A stretch of DNA of 64,000 nt from Tubulanus polymorphus. Lineage: Eukaryota; Nemertea; Palaeonemertea; Tubulaniformes; Tubulanidae. The translations under genes and the position numbers were made by a program. The stretch lies in the NCBI RefSeq assembly GCF_964204645.1, contig NC_134036.1, forward strand, positions 3,399,501 to 3,463,500, written 5' to 3'. The notes under the pieces were generated by a model. The model worked only from the letters and a program-made list of their open reading frames with translations. It had not been told where the DNA came from and did no database searches. Below are positions 6,051-61,800 of this stretch, one piece after another (position 1 is the stretch's first letter; every line of letters begins with the position of its first letter).

Positions 6051-6054
6051 CAAA

Positions 6055-6362
6055 CCTCGAGACGCAGACTCTACTCCGACTACGGCACCATCTTCAAACC
6101 TCGAGACGCAGACTCTACTCCGACGACGGCACCATCTTCAAACCTCGAGACGCAGACTCTACTCCGACTACGGCACCATCTTCAAACCTCGAGACGCAGA
6201 CTCTACTCCGACTACAGCACCATCTTCAAACCTCGAGACGCAGACTCTACTCCGACTACGGCACCATCTTCAAACCTCGAGACGCAGACTCTACTCCGAC
6301 GACGGCACCATCTTCAAACCTCGAGACGCAGACTCTACTCCGACGACGGCACCATCTCCACT
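6055..6362. repeat. Minisatellite, 44-bp unit, seven copies
   Basis: A unit starting CCTCGAGACGCAGACTCTAC recurs every 44 bp at 6055, 6099, 6143, 6187, 6231, 6275 and 6319, with only a TAC/GAC or CGG/CAG variation between copies. Because 44 is not a multiple of three, an open frame through it cycles through three peptide frames. The 124-codon open frame here is a by-product of the repeat rather than a gene. Confidence 0.95.
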
Positions 6363-12331: not shown

Positions 12332-13137
12332 TTACCTGTTGTGTATTTTAGTGATGTGTTTCAACATGTTGCCTTTCTGGAAGAACGGTTTGCCGCAATA
12401 ATCACACAGGAACGTTCCCATACTCGTGTGCAGTTTCAAGTGTTTCTGCATCGACGTTGTTGATTTGAAACCTTTACCGCACGAATAGCACCGATACACC
12501 GAGTCATCGGCAGGTGTTACCGATGTGTCCCGGTCTGGGCTAGGATGTGTCGATTCTCCATCCAATGGTCGGTGTTTGGCCCGGTTTTGGTTCTCGTGCT
12601 GCATCGATCCACCATCCAACGGTTGTTCTGCGATGTACTGGTCCTGATGCGGGTTCAGTTGTAACTCGGTTGGGTATTCCATCACGAGCTCCTCCCCCCG
12701 CTGATTTGCACGCATCGGTTCATCCGACTGATGGACCGTATGCGGACCATCCTGCGATAAGCGATTCGATTTTCCTCCTGGAGAGCCGTCATTTTCATCA
12801 CCCTCTTCATCGGAGGCACACGTATCGTACGCTTTGCGCTTCGACCGACGGCGCACGCGCCGGCAACTGTTACGTTGATGCGTCAATAGATGGCGTTGTA
12901 GATGATAACGACGAGCGAACGCCCGTTGACACAGTTCACACCGGAACGCTTTGATGCCGCTGTGGTCAGATTTTCGATGTCGAGACAAGTCGCTTTGGCT
13001 GAAAAACGATTCGCGGCACAACCAGCACACGTACGGTCGAATAGCTACGCGTTCCGATGATTTAACATCGATGGAAGGATGATCTGCGACTGAGGTCGAA
13101 TCGAGTCCACCGCATTCGTTTGTAGCCGATGCTTTTT
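12332..13137 (-). CDS. Zinc-finger gene, last coding exon with fingers 3-6
   Basis: Acceptor TTTTATTTCAG ends at 13138. The protein ends KIHNR. The stop is TAA if read through, but AACAG|GTAATT is also a donor; splicing to the acceptor at 12,025 gives AGG then TGA. Both routes give the same last residue, arginine, then a stop. Confidence 0.8.
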
Positions 13138-14344
13138 CTGAAATAAAAATGAAGAATCCAATTCAATTGCTAATGGATCTAATAAATGTGGTAATTCACA
13201 AAGCCAAGAAATTGGATGATCAGAAAAAACTAGAATAATATGACATTTCATTTCAAAAATGTTTGCTGATGAAATGTAATGGGCTAAGGCCCCAGCTGCA
13301 TTTATGACAGGGGCGGATCCAGGGGCCGACTCTGACAAAGAAATGAAAAGGGCATATTAGCGCCCCAAAAAATAATCCCATAGTTTTTTTCAAAAGGGCA
13401 CACAGATTTGCGAGCACAGGCTCCTTGTGCTCCCATCTGGATCGTCCTTGTATGATTTACCTTACAATAATCAATAAATGATTCAATGATTACCTCAAGG
13501 AAGAACATTATGAGGTGATTAATTTCATCTTTTCAGAAATTTTCAAATTATCTCCAGCACTTTCAGGTATCAATGAGTCGGCAATGTAAGGGTGTTAAGC
13601 TAGGACTGAAGATCAAATTATATTACCTGTGTCTGAAGCCGCTTCAGAGAATTCGCCATTCTTTTCACCGATAACAGTTTCTTCTATAGCGTCTTGTTGC
13701 TGCGTGTGTCCCGCCGTGGCGTTCAGCTTCATCTCCGCGTCGTAAAGCCGTTTGTTTTTCTCGTGTATTTTCACATGTCGATTCAAATGATAGCGACGCT
13801 TGAACAACTTCCAGCAGACGACGCACTTGAACGGTCGCTTGGTGACGCCGCCGTGTTCGTCGTTGACGTGCTCCGACAGGCGCCGGCGTCGCGTAGTCGA
13901 GAATTTACCGCAAATGTCGCAATGGTAGATTTTCCTCTGTCTCTCGACGCTATTATCATCGTTATTCTCTTCGCCCGTTATGTTATCATCATCATTCGCC
14001 AGGACATCCTGGTCGTCATTATCTTCCGTTTTCTTCATTCGCACTAAATGAACGATTTTTCGTTGAATGTCCGCCATCGTTTTATCGACATCGCCATCTG
14101 TACTTTCATTTCCGCCTGCAAGTGGCGGCGTAGTAGATTGTTCGCTTCCATCCTGGTCGACAGCGCCCTCATCTAGAATGTTCGGTACTAAAAATTTATG
14201 GGATGATGCTTTAGAGCAAGGTAGCTCCGAAAAGGCTGTATCATCTTTAACAGCGGCCACGAGAAAGTCCAATTCTTCGAAGGACGTCTTGTTGTGAATT
14301 CTGAAAATAATTTGCCTCATTTTATCAAACGTGCTCAATACCAT
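12332..14344 (-). CDS. C2H2 zinc-finger protein, six fingers, two coding exons
   Basis: Probable nuclear DNA-binding protein. Exon model: 14344 (or a splice acceptor giving 14300) to 13627, then 13137 to 12332; the junction restores one frame (phase 1). Exon one has an acidic low-complexity linker, then finger 1 (YHCDICGKF start, with the longer VNDEH ending) and finger 2 (FKCVVCWKLF). Exon two carries fingers 3 to 6 (YVCWLC, FRCELC, YRCYSC, FLCDYC), with a basic patch RRVRRRSKRK and a Pro/Asp-rich spacer of over 100 residues between fingers 4 and 5. The fingers are in pairs rather than one tandem array. The true start is uncertain: ATG at 14344 gives 507 residues, but a strong acceptor ATTATTTTCAG ends at 14301, so upstream coding exons are possible. 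I cannot name an orthologue. Confidence 0.8.
13308..13450. mobile_element. hAT-like MITE in the zinc-finger gene intron
   Basis: Begins CAGGGGCGGATCCAGGGGCC and ends with an imperfect inverted copy (minus strand CAAGGACGATCCAGATGGG). The interior phrase TTTTCAAAAGGGCACA and the end GCTCCTTGTGCTCCC are shared with the element at 24131-24412. Termini of the CAGGGGCGGATCC type are, from memory, typical of hAT elements. No transposase is encoded. Confidence 0.55.
13627..14344 (-). CDS. Zinc-finger gene, exon with fingers 1-2
   Basis: Ends at donor CACAG|GTAATA (intron from 13626). Open from ATG at 14344, but the sequence ATTATTTTCAG just inside it would make 14300 the exon start with phase 2. 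Both options keep the same downstream frame. The acidic stretch before finger 1 is rich in Asp and Asn. Confidence 0.7.
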
Positions 14345-17728: not shown

Positions 17729-40472
<22,744 letters not shown>

Positions 40473-46477: not shown

Positions 46478-46881
46478 TCACTGATTAGTCTGTTCGACGG
46501 CGATGCTTCCCGGGGAGTTCGTTAACTGCTGCTGCTGCTGCTGCTGCACCATCATACCACTGGCGTTTACGTCACCAGCGCCGTGCTGCTGCTGCTGTGG
46601 AACCGGCGCCAAACCGAGCATCGATAAGTGTTCGGCGTGGTGATGAGGCGGTTGATGGTGATGGTGGTGCTGCGTATGGTGCATCGACATCTGATCGGCG
46701 TGGTGGTGATGATGGTGGACGGGTAACTGGTGGTCTCCACCACCGGGCGTCTGGCCGCCGCCGTTATTGCCGGGATGCATCTCGGTCGAGCTCATGTCCA
46801 TCGGCATTCCAGCCGCCGGAAGATAGTCGATCGATTGAGACATCATCTGACGCGTTACGCCTCCGAGTCGTCTGTTACTGG
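46478..46881 (-). CDS. TCF12: E-protein exon e15: last exon, His/Gln/Met-rich C-terminus
   Basis: Acceptor CTCTTTACAG joins e14 in phase 1 to read [16 protein letters not shown]. The 133-residue tail has several His runs ([25 protein letters not shown]), PQQQQHG and a seven-Gln run, and ends VEQTNQ with TGA at 46480-46478. Vertebrate E proteins end about 25-30 residues after the same block, so this tail is a lineage extension. Confidence 0.85.
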
Positions 46882-49800
46882 CTGTAAAGAGTAACGGAGA
46901 GAAAACGTGTGAAGATCGCGATGACATTAAAAATCAATGAATTCGTCTGATGAAGGTAAGTAACGTGCGAAACCATGCGGTTAAAAACAAACTAAATTCA
47001 AAACTGATGCATTAGTTCATTCATTTCTCTCTACAGTCTAGCTATACGAATTAAGACATGTGGTGGCATAGGCCCATCAGATTCAATTCCCGGCGAGGGA
47101 GGAATGTGGCTAAGCCTTGTGATGCCACCAGGTTCAGATCTCTGCAAGGGAGGAACGTGGTGTAATCTCACGATGCCATCAGGTTTTAATCCCTGCGAGG
47201 AACGTGGCAGAGTCTCGCGACGCATCAGGTTCAGATCTCTGGTAGGGAGGAATGTGGCCGAGTCTAGTGATATAATCAGGGTCAAAGCCCCGACGAGGGA
47301 GGTAAGTGGCTGAGTCTACCGAAGCCATCAACGACCTAAGTCGCACGATAGTTAACCTACCTCTCGTGATAGACATCTGGGTGATCGTATTCAGGATGCA
47401 ATAAATGCCGATCGTAACCTACGGAGAGATCAATAGCAGAAAAAAACAGGCGATTAGTGTTAAACTCGACATGCAACTAAATAACTACACATTACAGCTA
47501 CATCAAACTCTCGTGCCTCTATCACATCCCTAGAGCAAATCTGACATTCAAATGGTGCGACTAAAACCGTTATCGGGTTGAAGGACTGCGCCCTCTTGTG
47601 ACTTCCTAATGAATTATTATTTCATGCAAACGACTTCTCTAAATTTCGTTCACCTGTCGCTCATAAATGCTATGCGTCGACCAATTCCACTCTGGGAGGA
47701 CACAACTACACAGTTCTGCGAGATTCAACTCACCAAGAATTAGAGATAGATTCATTTTCGCTTAACTTCCAAAAACTCTTTAACCCTGTAGATGCATTGA
47801 AAGGGTTAAGAGTCGAAAACAGCACTGCGTAGCTTAGTCCGGCATGCAAGAGAATTCTGACTCGGTCGTCAGCGTTGCTCTCGTTTTTAGGAAAGTTATT
47901 TATCGCTCTGTTCTATAACATACCGGCCATGGCAGCGTGTTGAGCTAATTCATCCGGGTTCATCGACTGCGGCTGTCGTCCCGGCAATTCTTCTGACTTC
48001 TCTTCCTCCCGACGTTTTAAACAAGCTGCTTTCGGGTTTAGATTTCGCTCTGCAGAAAAAAGAAGATCGAAAATCGTTAATTCACGTTTCTCGACAATGT
48101 TACTACATGGCTGGGAGGATGACGCTAGCTCTGAAACCAACTTTCAAAAGGGAAACCCAGAAAGAAGCCAAAAAGTGAGCCATTACCACTGACAAACAAA
48201 TTGTAACCTATGAACCCCGAATTGACGAGGTACTATAATCATAGTTCCCTGAGCTTTCCCTGATTTTTCTGACTGCGTTTTCCAGGTTTTGCAGGTCAGT
48301 GGCCGCCCTGAACAACTTTTACAAATAGGTAGAGAACATAGGAGGATTGATGTTTTGGCTCAGTTCCAAGAGCCAGTTTTCTTCACACTCGAATCGAATA
48401 GACAGTCACTCGTCTACGGACGCTCTCCACACGTCTCGTCGTTGCCGACCTTATCCGACCGGAACATACCTCTCACTTGTTGCTCTAATTGAGTGATAAT
48501 ATTGACGGCTTGTTGCAGTATCATTAGTTTAGTCAGCGGCTGCGTGCTGCCCGTGTGAATCGTCACCATGTGCCCGAGTTCTTTGAACGACTCGTTAATA
48601 TCGCGCACGCGAATCCTGAAAACGATACAAACATCGAAAAACACATAAACGGTTAGACGCCGTCGCTGATCGAGTGTTGCTGCCCGGCTCTATCCACGCG
48701 TCAGGATTGAGGAATATTTGAAAATACCGTTCCGTCGATCGAAAACCGTGCGAAATTTCGTTTTTCCCCGGTTTTTTTTTTCTCAACTATTCGTAGCCGA
48801 TATGAGCGGTGGTTCTCGTCGCCTAGCAACACCCGACGCGCGCAGACGTCCTCCGCAGCAGTCGTCGTAGATACGTACCTCGAACTTGATTCTCGAGTTG
48901 CGTAATCACGGCGACCGCCTGCTGCAGTATTTGCAGTTTCGTCAACGGCTGCGCCTGTTGCTGATGCGGTTGTTGCCGCGGCGACGATGTTGCTATGGCG
49001 ACGGCCCCGCCGGGCGTATGTAAGGCTATCATTTGACCTAGTTCCTTTAATGCGTTGTTTATGTCACGACCGCGAATTCTGCAGTGTATAAAACGTATTC
49101 ATGATGTTTAATTAATATCGTTGTGCTCCCCAATTATTGTCAACCTACGGGGTCCCGGTCCCGGCCCCCACCCGGTTAAAAACCCTTCAAAATCAAACCC
49201 CCAGATTATTACCCCTCATCCCTTAATTATCAAATTAGCATGTAACCAGGCATAACTTGCATGTTAATCAGTAGATTTGTGAAGCGCCTGTTTCATTTTT
49301 TCATTTTTGAATTGTTCAAGTGTGTGTCAGTGAAAACTGCATCTACAGCCCGTTGTATGCTGAGCAGAAAAACAAGTTTCTGACTGTGTTTGCGCATACT
49401 AATCAATTTGATACTCATTACGCCCAAAAATTACCTCTAGCCACAACATTACGAATAAAAGAACCTCATTGAGTTAAGACTGATTATCCAGAAAAAAATA
49501 GAATTTACAAATTTAAACCAGATAACGTATTCTATGACCCCCGATGTAACGAAATGGACCGACAAGAAATAAGGCGAGTTATTTTGCGTAGGATTTGATT
49601 CGATTAGATTTTTTTTCACTTAATGATTTTGAGATTTAGAAATTTCGCCGAGAATCAAAAACGGAAAAGACACAAACCACGAATGAAGAGCAGAGAAAGT
49701 CGTGACATAAACAAAACATCGTTTGAAAAGGACGAATTTCGATAGAATTTGTGATCGATTGTGATTTTACGAGAAATAAAATTTTTGCGCGCGAATGTGC

Positions 49801-52800
49801 TACGCGTGGATAGAGCTGGCGGGAAGATCGTGAATTCGGGATGAAAGGTACGACGAGAGAGAGAGTGGGCGCGAGTGCTTACCTTTCACGGGCGTTATTC
49901 GCCTGGCGTCGTAATCTCTCGCGTTCGGCCTTCGTTTCGGGAGATTCGTCCTCGTCGGGTTCCGTTCTGAATAAATAATCGAAAAGACGAAAACATGAAT
50001 TCATCGTCGCTCAAACGCAAACAACATTTCATCGACGCACTTTATCAACTGCTGATATACAATAGATAGATTCGTATTCGATTTATAATGACAAACAAGT
50101 TGTGCCAGTTCCACTACCAGTTTCACAAAAAACCTTTCGAAAAATATCTTCTTCAATTTATAAATTAAGTTCATGCTTATCAAATTTTCAGCGTTTGCAA
50201 AATATCAAAATCTATAAAACCAGATATAAAACCGGATACAAAAATATTGAAATTAAAAAAAAAAAATTAGTAGGATTTCCGCAGAGGAAAATCTTTTTTG
50301 ACAGCTTTTTTGTGAAACCATTCGCGTCCTGGATATTTTTATAAAGTTAGTTCAAAACCACAATTTAGACCTTTCGCCTCGATTAATGGTGAAGGGATTT
50401 TTTGAAATATCGCTGTACACCGCCGTAAAAAGAAATCCCACCTCCGCAGACGCGCGGAGGCAATGAATAAAGCAAAAACTACAACCCAGAGAGGAGAAAA
50501 GTTTAATAGAAATGTATAAGAGAGAGGCAGGGAGGGAGGGAGAGAACGGGGGCTAAAGATCGAAGAGGTTTCATTTATAGAATTCTATATTCATGCAGAG
50601 TTGTTTCCGATTCCCACCACTACAAAAATCTACTTTAGTAATTTCGCTATCCAAACATCGATCCGTTGTAGTTCTTAATTTCAAGTTGCATCTCAATATA
50701 TCGATATTTCTGTCCAATAAACAGGGTGGACATGTTTCTGAATTTCAAGTCTACTACGCTCTACTCTGTAGAGCGCAAAGTTTGGTGTTCATATGATTTC
50801 TAGGATCGATGTTTAAGATTAATTAGCTGTGATTAGATTCTCATTCACCAGTCAAAACAAATACCGAGTAATAAATCAAGTTGCTTTCAAAAAAGTCACT
50901 CTCGCAAGTCTGCAATTTTCATTTTTTCTCTCCCCTTTCGTAATCAACTAAGGAGTAAGTCCCCTTATCGAAATCAACACTAACGCGCTAAAATCAGGGA
51001 TTGTGGCTTGGAAAAGAAGGCAGGTATTAATTAAATTTTTTTTTCAGGTTTTATTTCCGATTCCCTGGATTCAGTCTTATTCGCTCGGTATACAGCATAG
51101 GCCAATTCGCCTGAATCACGAAGAATCAGAGAATATTCTCAAAATCATCTAAATATATCCAGAATTGACGCATTAATCATTGCTATAGTTTAAATTTACA
51201 TTCACAACATTCATTTAATCATCAACGATTACGGCATTTTTTTTCAGTAACAATTTGTGTCAGCTTCACAATGGTGCAAATCAAACAAAGACATCTTTTT
51301 AGTTATTTCCCCGAATTTTGAATATCTCGTACACCAAACATGCCCGAACAAGTTCAACTTCGAAAGCCACCCCTAATTCAGACCCGGAGATTGTAAACCC
51401 AAAATGAAATTTGTTAGAATTTCTTTTTACACAATCTAATATCGTTAACCCCTAAGTATATTTTTTGTTTTCAATCTTAGTTTCTAAAATTACGTAAAAT
51501 TCATCCAAACCCTTCGAAATAAATTGTTAAGTAAACCCATTTTTCGGAGATCTCGAAATAGATGGATTACCAATCAAGTTCTACGCGAAGTTAATTCCGG
51601 GTCTAATTGCCCCTCAAGTTAAACGAAAACATTTTAGGTCCCCCGAATTATGAAACATTCTTTGAATGTCTGAAATGCATTCTCGTTGTGCCACATCACA
51701 GTAACATGATTTTGTATCTTATTCATTTGTTTTTTGGTCTAGTTACCCATCAGGATTTTCGTTATCCGACATTGGCTCCGAAGAGCACATAGTGTTAATT
51801 GCAGACCTGCACGCGCGACTTAGAGTTGCTAGGGTTACAGACCTAGAATGGTTTGATAGCGAGTCCGCGTCCCTGAAATGATACGAAAAAATTAATTCAA
51901 TACATTTTCACGATAAACTGCAACAGAGATTTCTCAAACAAAACTGACAAGACAGTGGAACTGGATCCAGAGACAAATTAAACCCGCACAACTTATGAAC
52001 TGGATCCAGAGTCAAATTAAACCCACACAACTTAGGAACTGGATCCAGAGTCAAATTATACCCACAACTCAGGAACTGGATCCAGAGTCAAATTAAACCC
52101 ACACAACTGTGGAACTGGATCCCGAGTCAAATTAAGCCCACCCAACTGTGCAACTGGGGCAGTCAAATCAGACCCACACAACTGTCAAATAACTACCTGA
52201 ACATCTGCTGCAAATTTTCTCCTAGTGACGTCGGGCAAACCTCGTCAAACTTTGAGCTGGAGTTCTCAGTGTTTTGAAACTTTTTCCTGCAAAGTAAGAA
52301 ACGCGCGTAGACAATGAAAACACGTTCCGATTGAGTCAAATGAAACGAACGAAGACGTATTACGAATTGATACAAACCTCGGTCGTTTCGAACCATTGGA
52401 AGGAGTTGAAGGAGTTTTTGGAAGTGGTTTCTCATCTTTTTCCGACTTGTTGTCGTCGCGATGATTTTCTATTTTTTCGACCTGCAAATGAAACGGGGAA
52501 CGTAAGATAATCGGAACTATCAAAAATATATCGTAATCGAACAATGGTGAACTCAGTTATAACCCAAATGCATTTTTTGCTGGTATTCTAAAGGGGCTGG
52601 AATCATGGAGTATGACATCTAGGCTGCTGAAGTAGCAAGGCCTTCAATACCCGAAAAAGTACGGAAAATTAAAGCCCCATTTTGGTGAAATCTATTTCTG
52701 GTAAGAGCAGCAGATATTCTATAAGGGGTGGATGATTTTCAGAGGTGTCGATGTAAAATTGAAAGGAGTGGCCCGTTGTTGAGAACACCGAGACCCTGGG

Positions 52801-55800: not shown

Positions 55801-58800
55801 TTCTATCTAATCTAATCTGTAGATGAGTCAAAGAGATTCCCTCACTCTCTTCCAGTTGTGTTCAAGTCTATCGAGTCTATAGAGAAAGCTTCACTCACTC
55901 GCTCATACACTGTACAGAGATAGAGAGGTATCATTCGACCATGTGACAGCCAGATGCAGTGCAGTTACACCGACCGCGCGTTCTGATTGGCTCGTTTTGT
56001 TTATCTGCCAGACTCTCAAGTGCCTCTCTAAAATCCAAAACTTGTAACAGAACTTCCTGGTTTTTGTGCGCCGAGCGAGGGCCCTGAAGAGCGCACTTCA
56101 CACCGACGCAGAAAGAAAGAGGCAGGGAGAGAGAACGAGGGGGTCTTTCGAAATTATTGAACAGAATCTATACACTGTTTGAATAATGTTCTCTTGATCT
56201 CAGGAGAAGCAAATTCCCACACTGTCATGTCAAATTTCATTTTGAAATTCAGCATGAAAATGGCTAAGATATTGGGACCGTGGTGGCTTCAAAATTAAGA
56301 GATAAATTTGATTGGAACCGCGGTGGCCTCAAAATTAAGCGATAAATTTGATTGGAACCGCGGTGGCCTCAAAATTAAGCGATAAATTTGATTGGAACCG
56401 CGGTGGCCTCAAAATTAAGAGATAAATTTGATAGGAACCGTGGTGGCCGCAAAATTAAGAGATAAATTTGATTGGAACCGCGGTGGCCTCAAAATTAAGA
56501 GATAAATTTGATAGGAACCGTGGTGGCCGCAAAATTAAGAGATAAATTTGATTGGAACCGCGGTGGCCTCAAAATTAAGAGATAAATTTGATCTCGAATC
56601 TTTTTCATACATTTTCTGACTCCAATTCGATTTTCCAACCTTTCAAATATTTCGAGGCTTTATTTTACCCGACTTTTCCAATTCAACAATAACGAAACCG
56701 AAAATAATATCTCTAATTTTGACAATGAAAAATAATATGTATATTTCCTCTCTATATTTTCTTTCTATTCCCAGAGAGAGAGAGAATCTCTCTACTACGT
56801 TCAAGGAGAAGTGATTCATTTTCAAAGAGCCACAGGCTTCGGTTTTCAGCTTTCATAAATATTTCGCCCCGAGGGCCACTTATAATCGCTATCGAATACA
56901 CTACAGAATACACTACAGACTCCTCCGGTAAAGATGGGTCAAGTACTTCGGGGCTTGCGGCTTGGGTTTAGCTTACAGACGCTTTTATTGACAAAGGGAC
57001 ATTCAGGGAAAAAGTTAAACTCCCCGCGCATTGACAAAAACCGGCTTGCGTTCGGATGTTTCTTTTTAATCTCCATCAAAAATTTACTATGAAAACTTTT
57101 TTTGAAAATATTATCGCAAAAAATAATACGCGCGCGTAAAAACTAAAATTCCATTCCGAAGAAGACTGATGATATACAGTGTAATTTCTGGATCCCAACC
57201 ATCTAGAAATTCGGTCTATCGATATGAAAAACCTGCGATATCAAACTAGTTCAGGAAGTGTGAATTTGACCAATTACATAAGTATTAAGTGATAATATGC
57301 AGGGCTGTGTCAACATCTGAAAAGTTGCCATCAGTAACTAATTGAACTTTTTAACTAACATTTCATTATGAAAGAAAATTTTAGAATTTATCAGTAATCA
57401 ACAGTAACAGTAAGACCCTAAGTAACATCTTTCATATTTCTGTTAAAATTTATCAGTATTTTTCTTTATAAAGTAATAACAAATACTGAAAACAATAACG
57501 GTGTTGAAGCTCTGAATGTGCATGCGAAAAATCCACAATCTGGACGATCCGAAATTTGGATTTTGAACTAAATACATCTTCATCAATCTCACAAACCAAA
57601 TGAATCGCAAATGATGTGAATCGTTAGACCAGGGATTCTGATGGCGACAATGAGTAAGATTGAGTGGAGGAGCCCCTCACACGCCGGCTACAGTCAAAAG
57701 GTTTTCACCGACTCACTCCGAGAGGGGGTAAACCGAAAAGAGAAAGGAATAGAGGGTATAATTGTAACTGACAGTTATAGGTTGCCGCCGGTAACTGCAG
57801 TTACATCTGTTTCCTATTACTACCGCTACTGGTAAATTGCTTATAACTGCGTTTACGACTTTTATTTTCGTCGATCCGTTAATTTCGTCGCTCCCGATCA
57901 TCATTGAACTATTAATCAAAGCTAATTTTCGCTGATCGCTTAATTTCGGTAGTTCGCCAATTTCCGGCAAATTTTTAATTCTGCCAAATATCGATAATTC
58001 CCGATTCCTGGCAAACTATTCATCAATTCATTCCAACCCGGCTAAATTTTTTCCTTAAAATTTTTTTTTTCTTTGGACTAAAATATGTCCAGCAAATAGC
58101 GACGATTTTCCTCTAACCGCCAAAGATGTTCAGGATTTGAACATCAGCGCTGTGAATGCTTATTAACTACCGCCCCCTGGTGAGCCGCGAGTTTAAAACC
58201 ACACTGCGACAGGAATTTCCCCTCGCCGAAATATACACAAACTGAGGCAGGTATTTTGTGGTTATACGTGAAATACAGCTATCAATCTCGTGCAGCCTGG
58301 GACCGCCCCTTTACGCATTCATTATAGCGTAGATGATCAGTTTATGAAAGTGAGCTCTGATATGTCTCAGGTGAAGTTCTGAATACATTTGAAGCCAGGA
58401 CAATCAAGTTGCTAGAAGAATGCTAAAGTCAGAATGATAAACTCAGGGTTTCTTTTTTCATACCTTTTCTATACCCAGATTATAAATTTTCGATAGCCCT
58501 AAGTTACAAATCGCCCAAAAAAGTGACAACTGCCAATTGTAAGTAAGACAATTACGCATAATAGCCTAACATCCAAAATAGAAGGAACATTTTATTTTGG
58601 GACCATTTTCTGATTTTCCATCTTTCTATAGCTATAGATAAGAAGAGAAACCAGAATTAACCAAAACTTCCATAGCTTTTCCAAGGCCTGGAAAAGAATA
58701 TTCCCATTTTCCGGAACTTTCAGAAACCTGCACGAACCCTGAAAAGTGATTGATAGGAACGTATTGATCGGAAGAACTTACCATATGCGAGGGATATGAC

Positions 58801-61800
58801 ATCAGACCGTTGGAATGTGGTGGTAGTAGACCTTGCAGGTGACCGGGTAAACCGGGTAACTGTCCTTCTGCGTGGTTGCGTAATACGTGTATCGCGTCGT
58901 CCAGTCTTTCTTCCATTCGACTTTGCTGCAAAGAGACGACGTCGACGAATTCAATGATAACCGCCATTTTTAAAACATTTCCATGTCCCTGGGGTCCCTA
59001 CGGAGCAGTCATTCCTGGATTTAACGAGTTTTAAAGATTTCAAATTGTCTGCATTTACTAGACATTTTTCCCATTACTAGGACTCCTCTTTAGTCGGGAC
59101 CGTTTATCTCAGTGGTTTTATAAGCGAATTCCAATACTTTCTAATTTTTGGTAACCGCCTAATTGGGCAACAATTCCTCGTACCATCTGTATCGATTTAG
59201 GCGTAGTCTACTGTACGACTACACGTGCAAACATTTCTAATTGCCTATTTCTCAAAATTGAAGGAGTTTTAAAGGAGTTTCTGGCATTTTGCTCAAATCA
59301 AAGGAGTTTCGAGCACCTTTGAAAGCATTTCCCGTTTAGGAGTTTCTTAAGGAACGAAGGAGTAGTAGGGACCCGGTTTGTAAAGCGTCCGCAAACCGAG
59401 GATCATTGGTTACGCTAGATTGAAACTAAATTTATACACCGCGTGAAATTACTTATGAATCAATTCATAATGAACATATTTTTGGAACTTTCCCTCTGAC
59501 ATTTTCCGGCTGGGTTTCAGAGCGACGGGGTACTGAAGGACAGGCTGCTTTGATGTATGATAGTTTTATGGCGTAATATTTCATTCGAACACATATATTT
59601 ATTTACGCAAAGCATTGCTTCTAAACCTTTCTTCTCGGGACACTTTCAGCAAGGTAGCAGAAAGTATGAATCAGATGACAGGCTTTATACATTGTTGATA
59701 ATGATAATAATTATCATAATTATAATAATTATTCAATTAATTGATTGAACTTGTTGAAAAGTTGATAAATATGGGAAATTGATTTTAGAAGCCTGAAAAT
59801 CACTAACAGGAACCTCGGGAAAAACCAGGTTTTGATTAAGCGAAAAACCTCCAGAATTTTTTCAAATTATCAAACTGAAAATCGCCCGGGGTATGGTAGG
59901 GGGGAGGTGTTTAGTACGGACGGTTAAAATCTAAAATACCTGAGCGGCGTCCGGAAGTAAACATGCCACGTCGTCCAATAACAACTGAATATACGGGAAA
60001 AAGTTGACGAGGACAAATTGAAGAAAAAATAAAAACGAAAAAAAAACTTGTGTGCGTGTAAAGAAAGAAAATGCGACTAAGTAAAAAATATTTCTAAAAA
60101 AAGACATGTTGCATAGCAAAAATCTATTAGGGGTCTCGCAAAATCCTGAGATAAATAGAAATTAATTTTCTGAGGCTCGAAATGTTAGGAAATTCAAATC
60201 GTCCACGCTCCATGAATTTATCAATAATTTAGTTTGTAACAAGAATTAGCGAATTATGAAAAAATATTGAAAGCAATGCAATAAAAAGGAAAAAGAAAAC
60301 TGATTTTGCAAAAAAATTCTCAAGGTAGGGTGAGGGTAATAAAATCTAGGCGATCGGTTTTTAGTTTGTGAGAAAAAGTGACGAAAAAGAAGAGCTTTTT
60401 CGATCAGCAAAAAAAGTGAAAAAAAAAAACAAAACAATTGAAATTTTTAACACTAGCAACGGGTGATTGAGAGAGATACAGATAGAGAATGAACTTACTT
60501 TTGATGGCCCCATTATGTTCTACAAGAAAAAATCGAAACAGAAAAATGTCAACGAAATAAAAACGAAAAACGAAAAAAGAAAACCAGCGAAAATTACAGT
60601 CACGACATGTAGCAAGATATGATATATATATATAACAGGCAGAGAATCGTCCTCGTTTTCGGACATTTTTTCTAGAAATAATTTGAATATCATGACACAT
60701 AAATCGACGAAAATTACGTACCAGCGAATGTAAATGACTTTCGAACTGTGAAGAGGTAGTTGTTTGAGATGATACGTTTGGGCGGGACCATTGACTAGTA
60801 ATCGGACCTCCGACTGAAAGACAGAAAAACATTTCGAATTCGGAAAAAAATCGGAAGGAGGCTGAAGAGGTACGACCGGGAGGTATTCATTACTAACCTG
60901 ACATGGGAGGAGGTGATGAAACAGGCGTGGATGGATTTGATCCATAACTATTACTATGTTCTGTAGGGTATATCTGAAATGAGTTAATTGAAATAATAAT
61001 TAGTTAATTGATCTAATTAATCCTATAAGATTGATAATTTTCATCTCCGAAAATACTAATAAATTAAATCAATGTTGTCCTCGGAGGAAGCATCCTTTAT
61101 TTTAAGCGGTTACAACCAGAAGCGTTTCCTGTCCCTAAATCGGGGTGGCGAAGAACATTTTTGAACTTTTTTTTTCATTTTCAATTCGTGCAAATCCCGC
61201 GGAAACTGGTCAGCTGCTCGCGAATGTATACAGGTAATTGCTAATTAGCGGATTCGAGAAACTCCGGATGCGAGTCCGGATTAAAACGCGATCGATCGAT
61301 CGACGAAATCCCGCGCGTTCGCGTCGACGCCGCCGTGTAAGTCATGGGAACCGGTCCATCTGACGAGACCGCGTGGGAACCAGTCCATCTGATCATCATC
61401 GTCGTTTCGTTCGTTATCGAGCGGTAAAGTTTCGTCAGTTTTTCCTCGTTGACGCGGCGCGCGGCTCACCGATCATTCAAAAACAAGAAAATCGCGGATG
61501 ATATTTTTCGAGATAAGACAAACAAAAAAAGATTCCTGCGAAAGATTTCTGTTCTTTTTTCAAGAAAATTTCCTCATCTTGATATGGAAAAATCAAAGGG
61601 GGCAATTTGTCGAGTGCCCTCAGTTTCTGGCCCAATTTCTTAAATACTCATTTCTATAAATACAAATACATGTATTGTTTCATAAGGGCTACTATAACGT
61701 AGATAATGAGATCGGATGCCCTGAAAATTCACAAAAATAAGTCTAAATTTTCTGGGGGAGGGCACCGGACCAACGCCGAACATGAAGGATACTTGCACTT

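Follow-up and report, generated by a model that had tools for sequence, protein, structure and literature searches.

An E-protein gene lies on the minus strand in the final third of the window, the 64,000-nt stretch of DNA analysed here. The parts that encode its bHLH are, in the direction of transcription, a shared upstream exon, two alternative exons, designated B and A, and a shared downstream exon, all of them on the minus strand (Table 1). The upstream exon contributes 27 residues and two bases of the following Arg codon. Joined to exon A or to exon B, it matches the HLH profile PF00010 with E = 4.3e-14 or 3.2e-12, respectively, and when either form is compared with PDB chains the top match is E2A (E = 9.3e-34 with A, 1.7e-24 with B). 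The extension of 18 residues that follows the bHLH is identical to E2A in the alignment. With this extension, and with a bHLH nearest to those of E2A and TCF4, sequence searches place the protein in class I, the E12/E47/daughterless family. Upstream in the same gene, a further open frame matches residues 389–421 of E2A, a segment within the range 310–430 given for AD2 in a published study (PMC8283981). The N-terminal activation domain, AD1, may be situated past the end of the window. When the 268 Mb genome was queried with the exon A protein, exons A and B were the sole matches at E ≤ 0.001; by sequence search, the gene at this locus is the single E-protein gene recognised in the genome.

Table 1. 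Features of the E-protein gene, with positions in the window
Feature	Position	Strand	Remarks
Open frame with E-protein motif	58635..58997	minus	upstream in the same gene; phmmer match to E2A 389–421, E = 5.7e-05
Shared upstream exon, 84 nt	49883..49966	minus	acidic stretch and start of basic region; based on reading frame, splice sites and E2A alignment from residue 537 onward
G-run cluster	49128..49222	minus	in the intron directly upstream of B; candidate splicing switch
Alternative exon B, 200 nt	48879..49078	minus	last part of basic region through helix 1 and a longer loop to helix 2
GGT (Gly) codon in exon B	49069..49071	minus	at the position of E47 V559; exon A has Val (GTG) there
Loop insertion of exon B, 18 residues	48961..49014	minus	Pro/Gln-rich; placed by MAFFT
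B–A intron, 263 nt	48616..48878	minus	CTAAC, resembling a branch point, about 36 nt before the 3′ end
Alternative exon A, 146 nt	48470..48615	minus	canonical version of the segment from the last part of the basic region to helix 2
Shared downstream exon	47924..48049	minus	final part of the E-protein bHLH region

An open frame with His and Gln runs at 46481–46933 of the minus strand may hold the gene's final coding region. Minisatellites with units of 92, 44, 39, and 40 nt are found at 204–756, 6051–6357, 51957–52183, and 56271–56592, respectively; two of these arrays fall inside the span of the E-protein gene. Elsewhere in the genome, ten Hox-type homeodomains are encoded on one strand of a single contig (C6:5318228-5634753). 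The homeodomain flanks there are presumably of the Lox5, Lox4, Lox2, and Post2 types, and we take a homeodomain on a separate contig (C7:16160411) to be Post1-like and genes on C5 to be Cdx- and Gsx-like. The Hox genes suggest that the animal is a spiralian, perhaps an annelid given the separate contig of the Post1-like gene. It is probably not Capitella teleta, since two primers for that species (PMC5539756) gave 0 matches in the genome when up to 2 mismatches were allowed. A search for COX1 in the genome gave no match.

Exons A and B are both entered in phase 2 and left in phase 1. The upstream exon supplies AG of the Arg codon, to which exon B adds A and exon A adds G as the third base, and the one base left over at the end of either exon completes the Glu of ERNLNPK in the downstream exon. 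Joining the shared exons through B alone or through A alone gives an open frame in each case. Including both B and A brings in a stop after roughly 50 nt of exon A, with 93 nt left before the A donor; skipping both brings one in after 97 nt of the downstream exon, with 26 nt left before that exon's donor. The two exons are thus adjacent and homologous, share their phases and have plausible splice sites, and neither their joint inclusion nor their joint skipping yields a full-length product, as would be expected of a mutually exclusive pair. The sequence-only reading had proposed such a tandem, frame-enforced pair in an E-protein gene. The anatomy, the frames, and the homology support it, and the exon coordinates, the lengths of 200 and 146 nt, the phases, the splice dinucleotides, and the broken frame of both unproductive joins were reproduced as it gave them. 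Its further statement that exactly one exon must be used is correct for a full-length protein, but unproductive transcripts with both exons or neither may still arise.

The splice sites were scored with splice-site weights and ranked as percentiles among the GTs (donors) or AGs (acceptors) of the sense strand. On this scale the shared upstream exon has a donor at 99.9, followed by the donors of B (99.5) and A (99.3); among acceptors, A stands at 98.9, B at 95.5, and the shared upstream exon at 90.7. The donors of A and B, at or above the 99.3 percentile, and their acceptors agree with the earlier description of both exons as having good splice sites. Because the acceptor of the upstream exon ranks below that of B, the B acceptor is nothing special. 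A stretch of 48 nt within exon B that begins with GT and ends with AG, removal of which would shorten the loop, was considered by eye as an intron and set aside; its donor-like site looks poor and its length lies below that usual for animal introns.

Exons A and B are related to one another (BLASTP, E = 2e-16), with identity at 33 of 48 aligned residues. Over the 48 codons they differ at 15 first, five second, and 30 third positions, and at 8 of 13 fourfold sites. When the same 50 changes were distributed at random in 20,000 simulations, 75% of the runs met a stop; at most 27 residues stayed identical, and not one run reached the observed 33. Estimates over 45 codons give dN of 0.21–0.23 and dS of 1.5 and 1.8 by two methods, with saturation by a third. 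Since 33 residues have been kept though 30 third positions differ, A and B have each evolved as coding sequence. By these comparisons selection has acted on both at the protein level through a large part of their past, and their present-day use is a separate matter.

The arrangement recalls exons 18a and 18b of vertebrate TCF3, likewise an E-protein gene with tandem exons of which one or the other is used, so that the bHLH is altered. Human exon 18b spans S530–R604 (PMC11286708) and measures 224 or 227 nt (PMC12324280). The 3′ boundary of A and B, after QVR, is that of 18b; the lengths are 2 mod 3 in both systems, and in both a G-rich element lies in or near one copy. The 5′ boundary, however, is different. 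Whereas 18b holds the whole basic region together with residues upstream of it, here the residues through E555 lie in the shared upstream exon and the alternative part starts in codon R556 (E47 numbering), so that the duplicated unit lacks most of the basic region. A further departure from TCF3 is that one copy bears Gly at the position of V559 and an 18-residue loop insertion. Nor do A and B pair with E12 and E47 respectively. In a tree of five sequences and 48 columns, A and B are grouped against E47, an E12-like E2A sequence, and TCF4 with 98% ultrafast bootstrap; the quartet-informative columns divide 4:0:0, all in favor of this grouping, and E47 is joined with the E12-like sequence with just 55%. 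Because the 5′ boundary differs and A groups with B, the pair is probably independent of the duplication that gave E12 and E47. The sample of five sequences contains no other spiralian, and gene conversion between the tandem exons could also bring A and B together; independence from TCF3 is accordingly put forward as the likelier reading. The earlier comparison, that TCF3 makes E12 and E47 in the same way, is apt for the splicing logic but probably not for descent.

TCF4 provides a second point of reference. It too is an E-protein, and its bHLH in the PDB shares 32 of 48 residues with A and 30 of 48 with B, but that bHLH is encoded by exon 19 alone, and the available part of the report does not mention an alternative HLH exon (PMC3137626). 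The upstream exon and exon A together amount to 230 nt (84 + 146), close to the 224 or 227 nt of the single human exon. This agreement suggests that an ancestral exon was split in the present lineage or, conversely, that a split exon was fused in vertebrates. Convergent tandem duplications of exons in orthologous genes of distant animals are documented (PMC9741552). In the portion of that work that is available the cases are mostly ion channels and other genes that do not encode transcription factors, and the terms “transcription factor” and “TCF” are absent from its main text. Among the matches listed in a search of open-licence titles and abstract beginnings, there was no report of an alternative HLH exon pair in an E-protein gene outside vertebrates.

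The alignment bears out the description of one version as canonical and of the other as having a Val-to-Gly change, which falls where the basic region meets helix 1, and 18 extra loop residues. The 54 genome matches to the HLH profile include 52 loci besides exons A and B, from class A and from other families; their residues in the V559 column are R (21), M (16), V (8), T (4), L (2), and Q (1), and Gly is found in none. In an alanine scan of human E47, V559A had low or no activity and V557A was harmless; in reporter assays, co-expression of V559A with the wild type recovered activity (PMC11286708). Recovery beside the wild type means that V559A is not dominant negative. A dominant-negative effect of isoform B is possible, although by analogy the E47 data would oppose strong dominance. 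At six of the 15 residues that differ between the exons, A alone has a residue seen in the vertebrate sequences; at four B alone has one, and at five neither does. The branch leading to B is 2.3 times as long as that to A (0.31 versus 0.13 in the five-sequence, 48-column tree). An AlphaFold2 model of the two exon sequences alone has helices at residues 3–20 and 47–65, but it is of low confidence, with a mean pLDDT of 65, a pTM of 0.43, and pLDDT below 50 in the loop segments 24–33 and 37–41; the 18-residue insertion has no secondary structure in this low-confidence model. Given the Gly at V559 and the long loop, a homodimer of isoform B is expected to bind DNA weakly, and the likeliest role for B, judged by analogy with E47, is to dimerise while binding DNA weakly. 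If so, B would resemble the Id proteins in dimerising and weakening E-box binding, but unlike them it retains most of the basic region and is an isoform of the E-protein rather than the product of a separate gene.

The manner in which one exon might exclude the other was also considered. Steric exclusion, for which a published account gives a threshold of less than 50 nt between branch point and donor (PMC5740500), was rejected, as the B donor lies about 226 nt from the CTAAC site; in an intron of 263 nt with CTAAC near its 3′ end, a steric block to B–A splicing is not expected. Docking of RNA between introns was rejected as well, because for the three intron pairs 20, 87, and 98 out of 100 shuffled controls pair with an energy at or below that observed. 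The reading frame explains the exclusion, acting as a filter with its both-included stop well before the junction. What selects A or B would be a matter for splicing regulators, of which the G-run cluster may mark a site of action. With 33 G in nine runs per 150 nt, the cluster is the densest in the window on either strand, the next-best values being 25 elsewhere on the sense strand and 19 on the other strand. It contains a G-quadruplex-type motif at 49173–49154, one of two on the sense strand of the window. Because the measure was picked after the cluster had been noticed, the cluster serves as a lead. The idea that it is a dispersed repeat was dropped when a genome search, in which very common words were skipped, returned the cluster alone. 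No Rbfox-type GCATG was found between 49882 and 48050. In human TCF3 the choice between 18a and 18b is controlled by HNRNPH1 via a G-rich region in exon 18b (PMC12324280). The parallel with the present cluster is suggestive, with the difference that the G-rich site is inside the exon in TCF3 and in the intron upstream of B here.

The explanation that probably accounts best for these observations is that A and B are true mutually exclusive exons, which arose by a tandem duplication independent of that in TCF3 and are held apart by the reading frame, with A an ordinary activator and B a weak DNA binder. An exon carrying the last part of the basic region and, after it, helix 1, the loop, and helix 2, behind a phase-2 intron in codon R556, would have been duplicated in tandem. 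Thereafter the frame would enforce exclusion, two copies or none leading to a premature stop. The proportion of A to B would probably be set by splicing regulators, for which the G-run cluster upstream of B is the most visible candidate. Isoform A would act as an ordinary activating E-protein. Isoform B would keep the dimer helices and bind DNA weakly as a homodimer; it might modulate or counteract activation through E-boxes, or work with particular partners alone.

The most serious challenge concerns isoform B. It is conceivable, if clearly less probable than the reading just given, that exon B encodes a fully active E-protein in which the loop and the Gly shift the choice of partner or site. 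Some fly proneural proteins tolerate long bHLH loops, B keeps the core residues of the HLH, and both helices are retained in the model, which is of low confidence. Against full activity stand the low or absent activity of V559A in E47 (PMC11286708) and the lack of Gly at this column in any of the 52 other HLH loci. The same Gly, at a position where Ala means loss of function in E47, can be turned to a different use. Together with the weaker acceptor, the longer branch, and the Gln-rich expansion of the loop, it would fit a decaying duplicate that is recently dead or rarely used and still looks intact. That B is such a relic is unlikely, because in spite of high synonymous divergence it is open over 66 codons, with intact splice sites and a length of 2 mod 3, and because 33 of 48 residues are still common to A and B when three-quarters of random-change simulations hit a stop.

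The frame itself could be the point of the arrangement, if transcripts with both exons or neither served as regulated unproductive splicing that sets the level of the E-protein. The position of a stop relative to a junction is tied to nonsense-mediated decay by a distance rule, and the both-included stop, 93 nt ahead of the junction, would be well suited to it; direct splicing of B to A is, moreover, sterically possible across the 263-nt intron. Such a scheme would not need B to retain HLH-specific residues, however, and it seems quite improbable. Least credible of all, and very unlikely, is a pair ancestral to bilaterians and orthologous to E12 and E47. It would account for the shared splicing logic and the 3′ boundary after QVR, and the length and residue range of human 18b allow phases of 2 in and 1 out to be deduced for it. 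It is opposed by the 5′ boundary, at R556 here as against S530 in 18b, and by the tree, in which A is grouped with B and not with any of the three sequences from vertebrates.

If the pair is indeed a second, independent origin with a different duplicated unit, tuning of the E-protein dimer by splicing would appear to have been favored repeatedly. Many tissue-specific bHLH factors of class A have E-proteins as their common partners. The pair would add an E-protein, with an altered DNA-binding module, to the convergent tandem exon duplications, and it offers a naturally occurring experiment on V559 and on the length of the loop within a living animal.

The weak DNA binding proposed for B invites comparison with the Id genes of the same genome. 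None of the 52 HLH profile loci other than A and B is Id-like. An emc-like query gave two matches at E ≤ 1, the better at 0.12, and an Id1-like query gave 13, the best at 1.6e-4; all fall at HLH profile loci that bear a basic region. These searches would miss an Id gene that is split by introns, diverged, or absent from the assembly. Should the genome really lack Id, weak DNA binding by an E isoform would take on more meaning. A bolder proposal, which is speculative and rather doubtful, is that an antagonist of the E-protein is supplied by the E-protein gene itself. Isoform B would dimerise and barely bind E-boxes, splicing would do the work of Id where no Id gene is recognised, and the balance of A and B would be set by a G-run switch that arose in parallel to the one operated by hnRNP H in vertebrate TCF3.

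The minus strand of the window also carries exons of a reprolysin-type (M12B, ADAM-like) metallopeptidase at 20359–21248 and C2H2 zinc-finger exons at 12335–14344, those at 13616–14344 scoring slightly below the Pfam cut-offs. A perfect (TA)70 run is found at 34431–34570.
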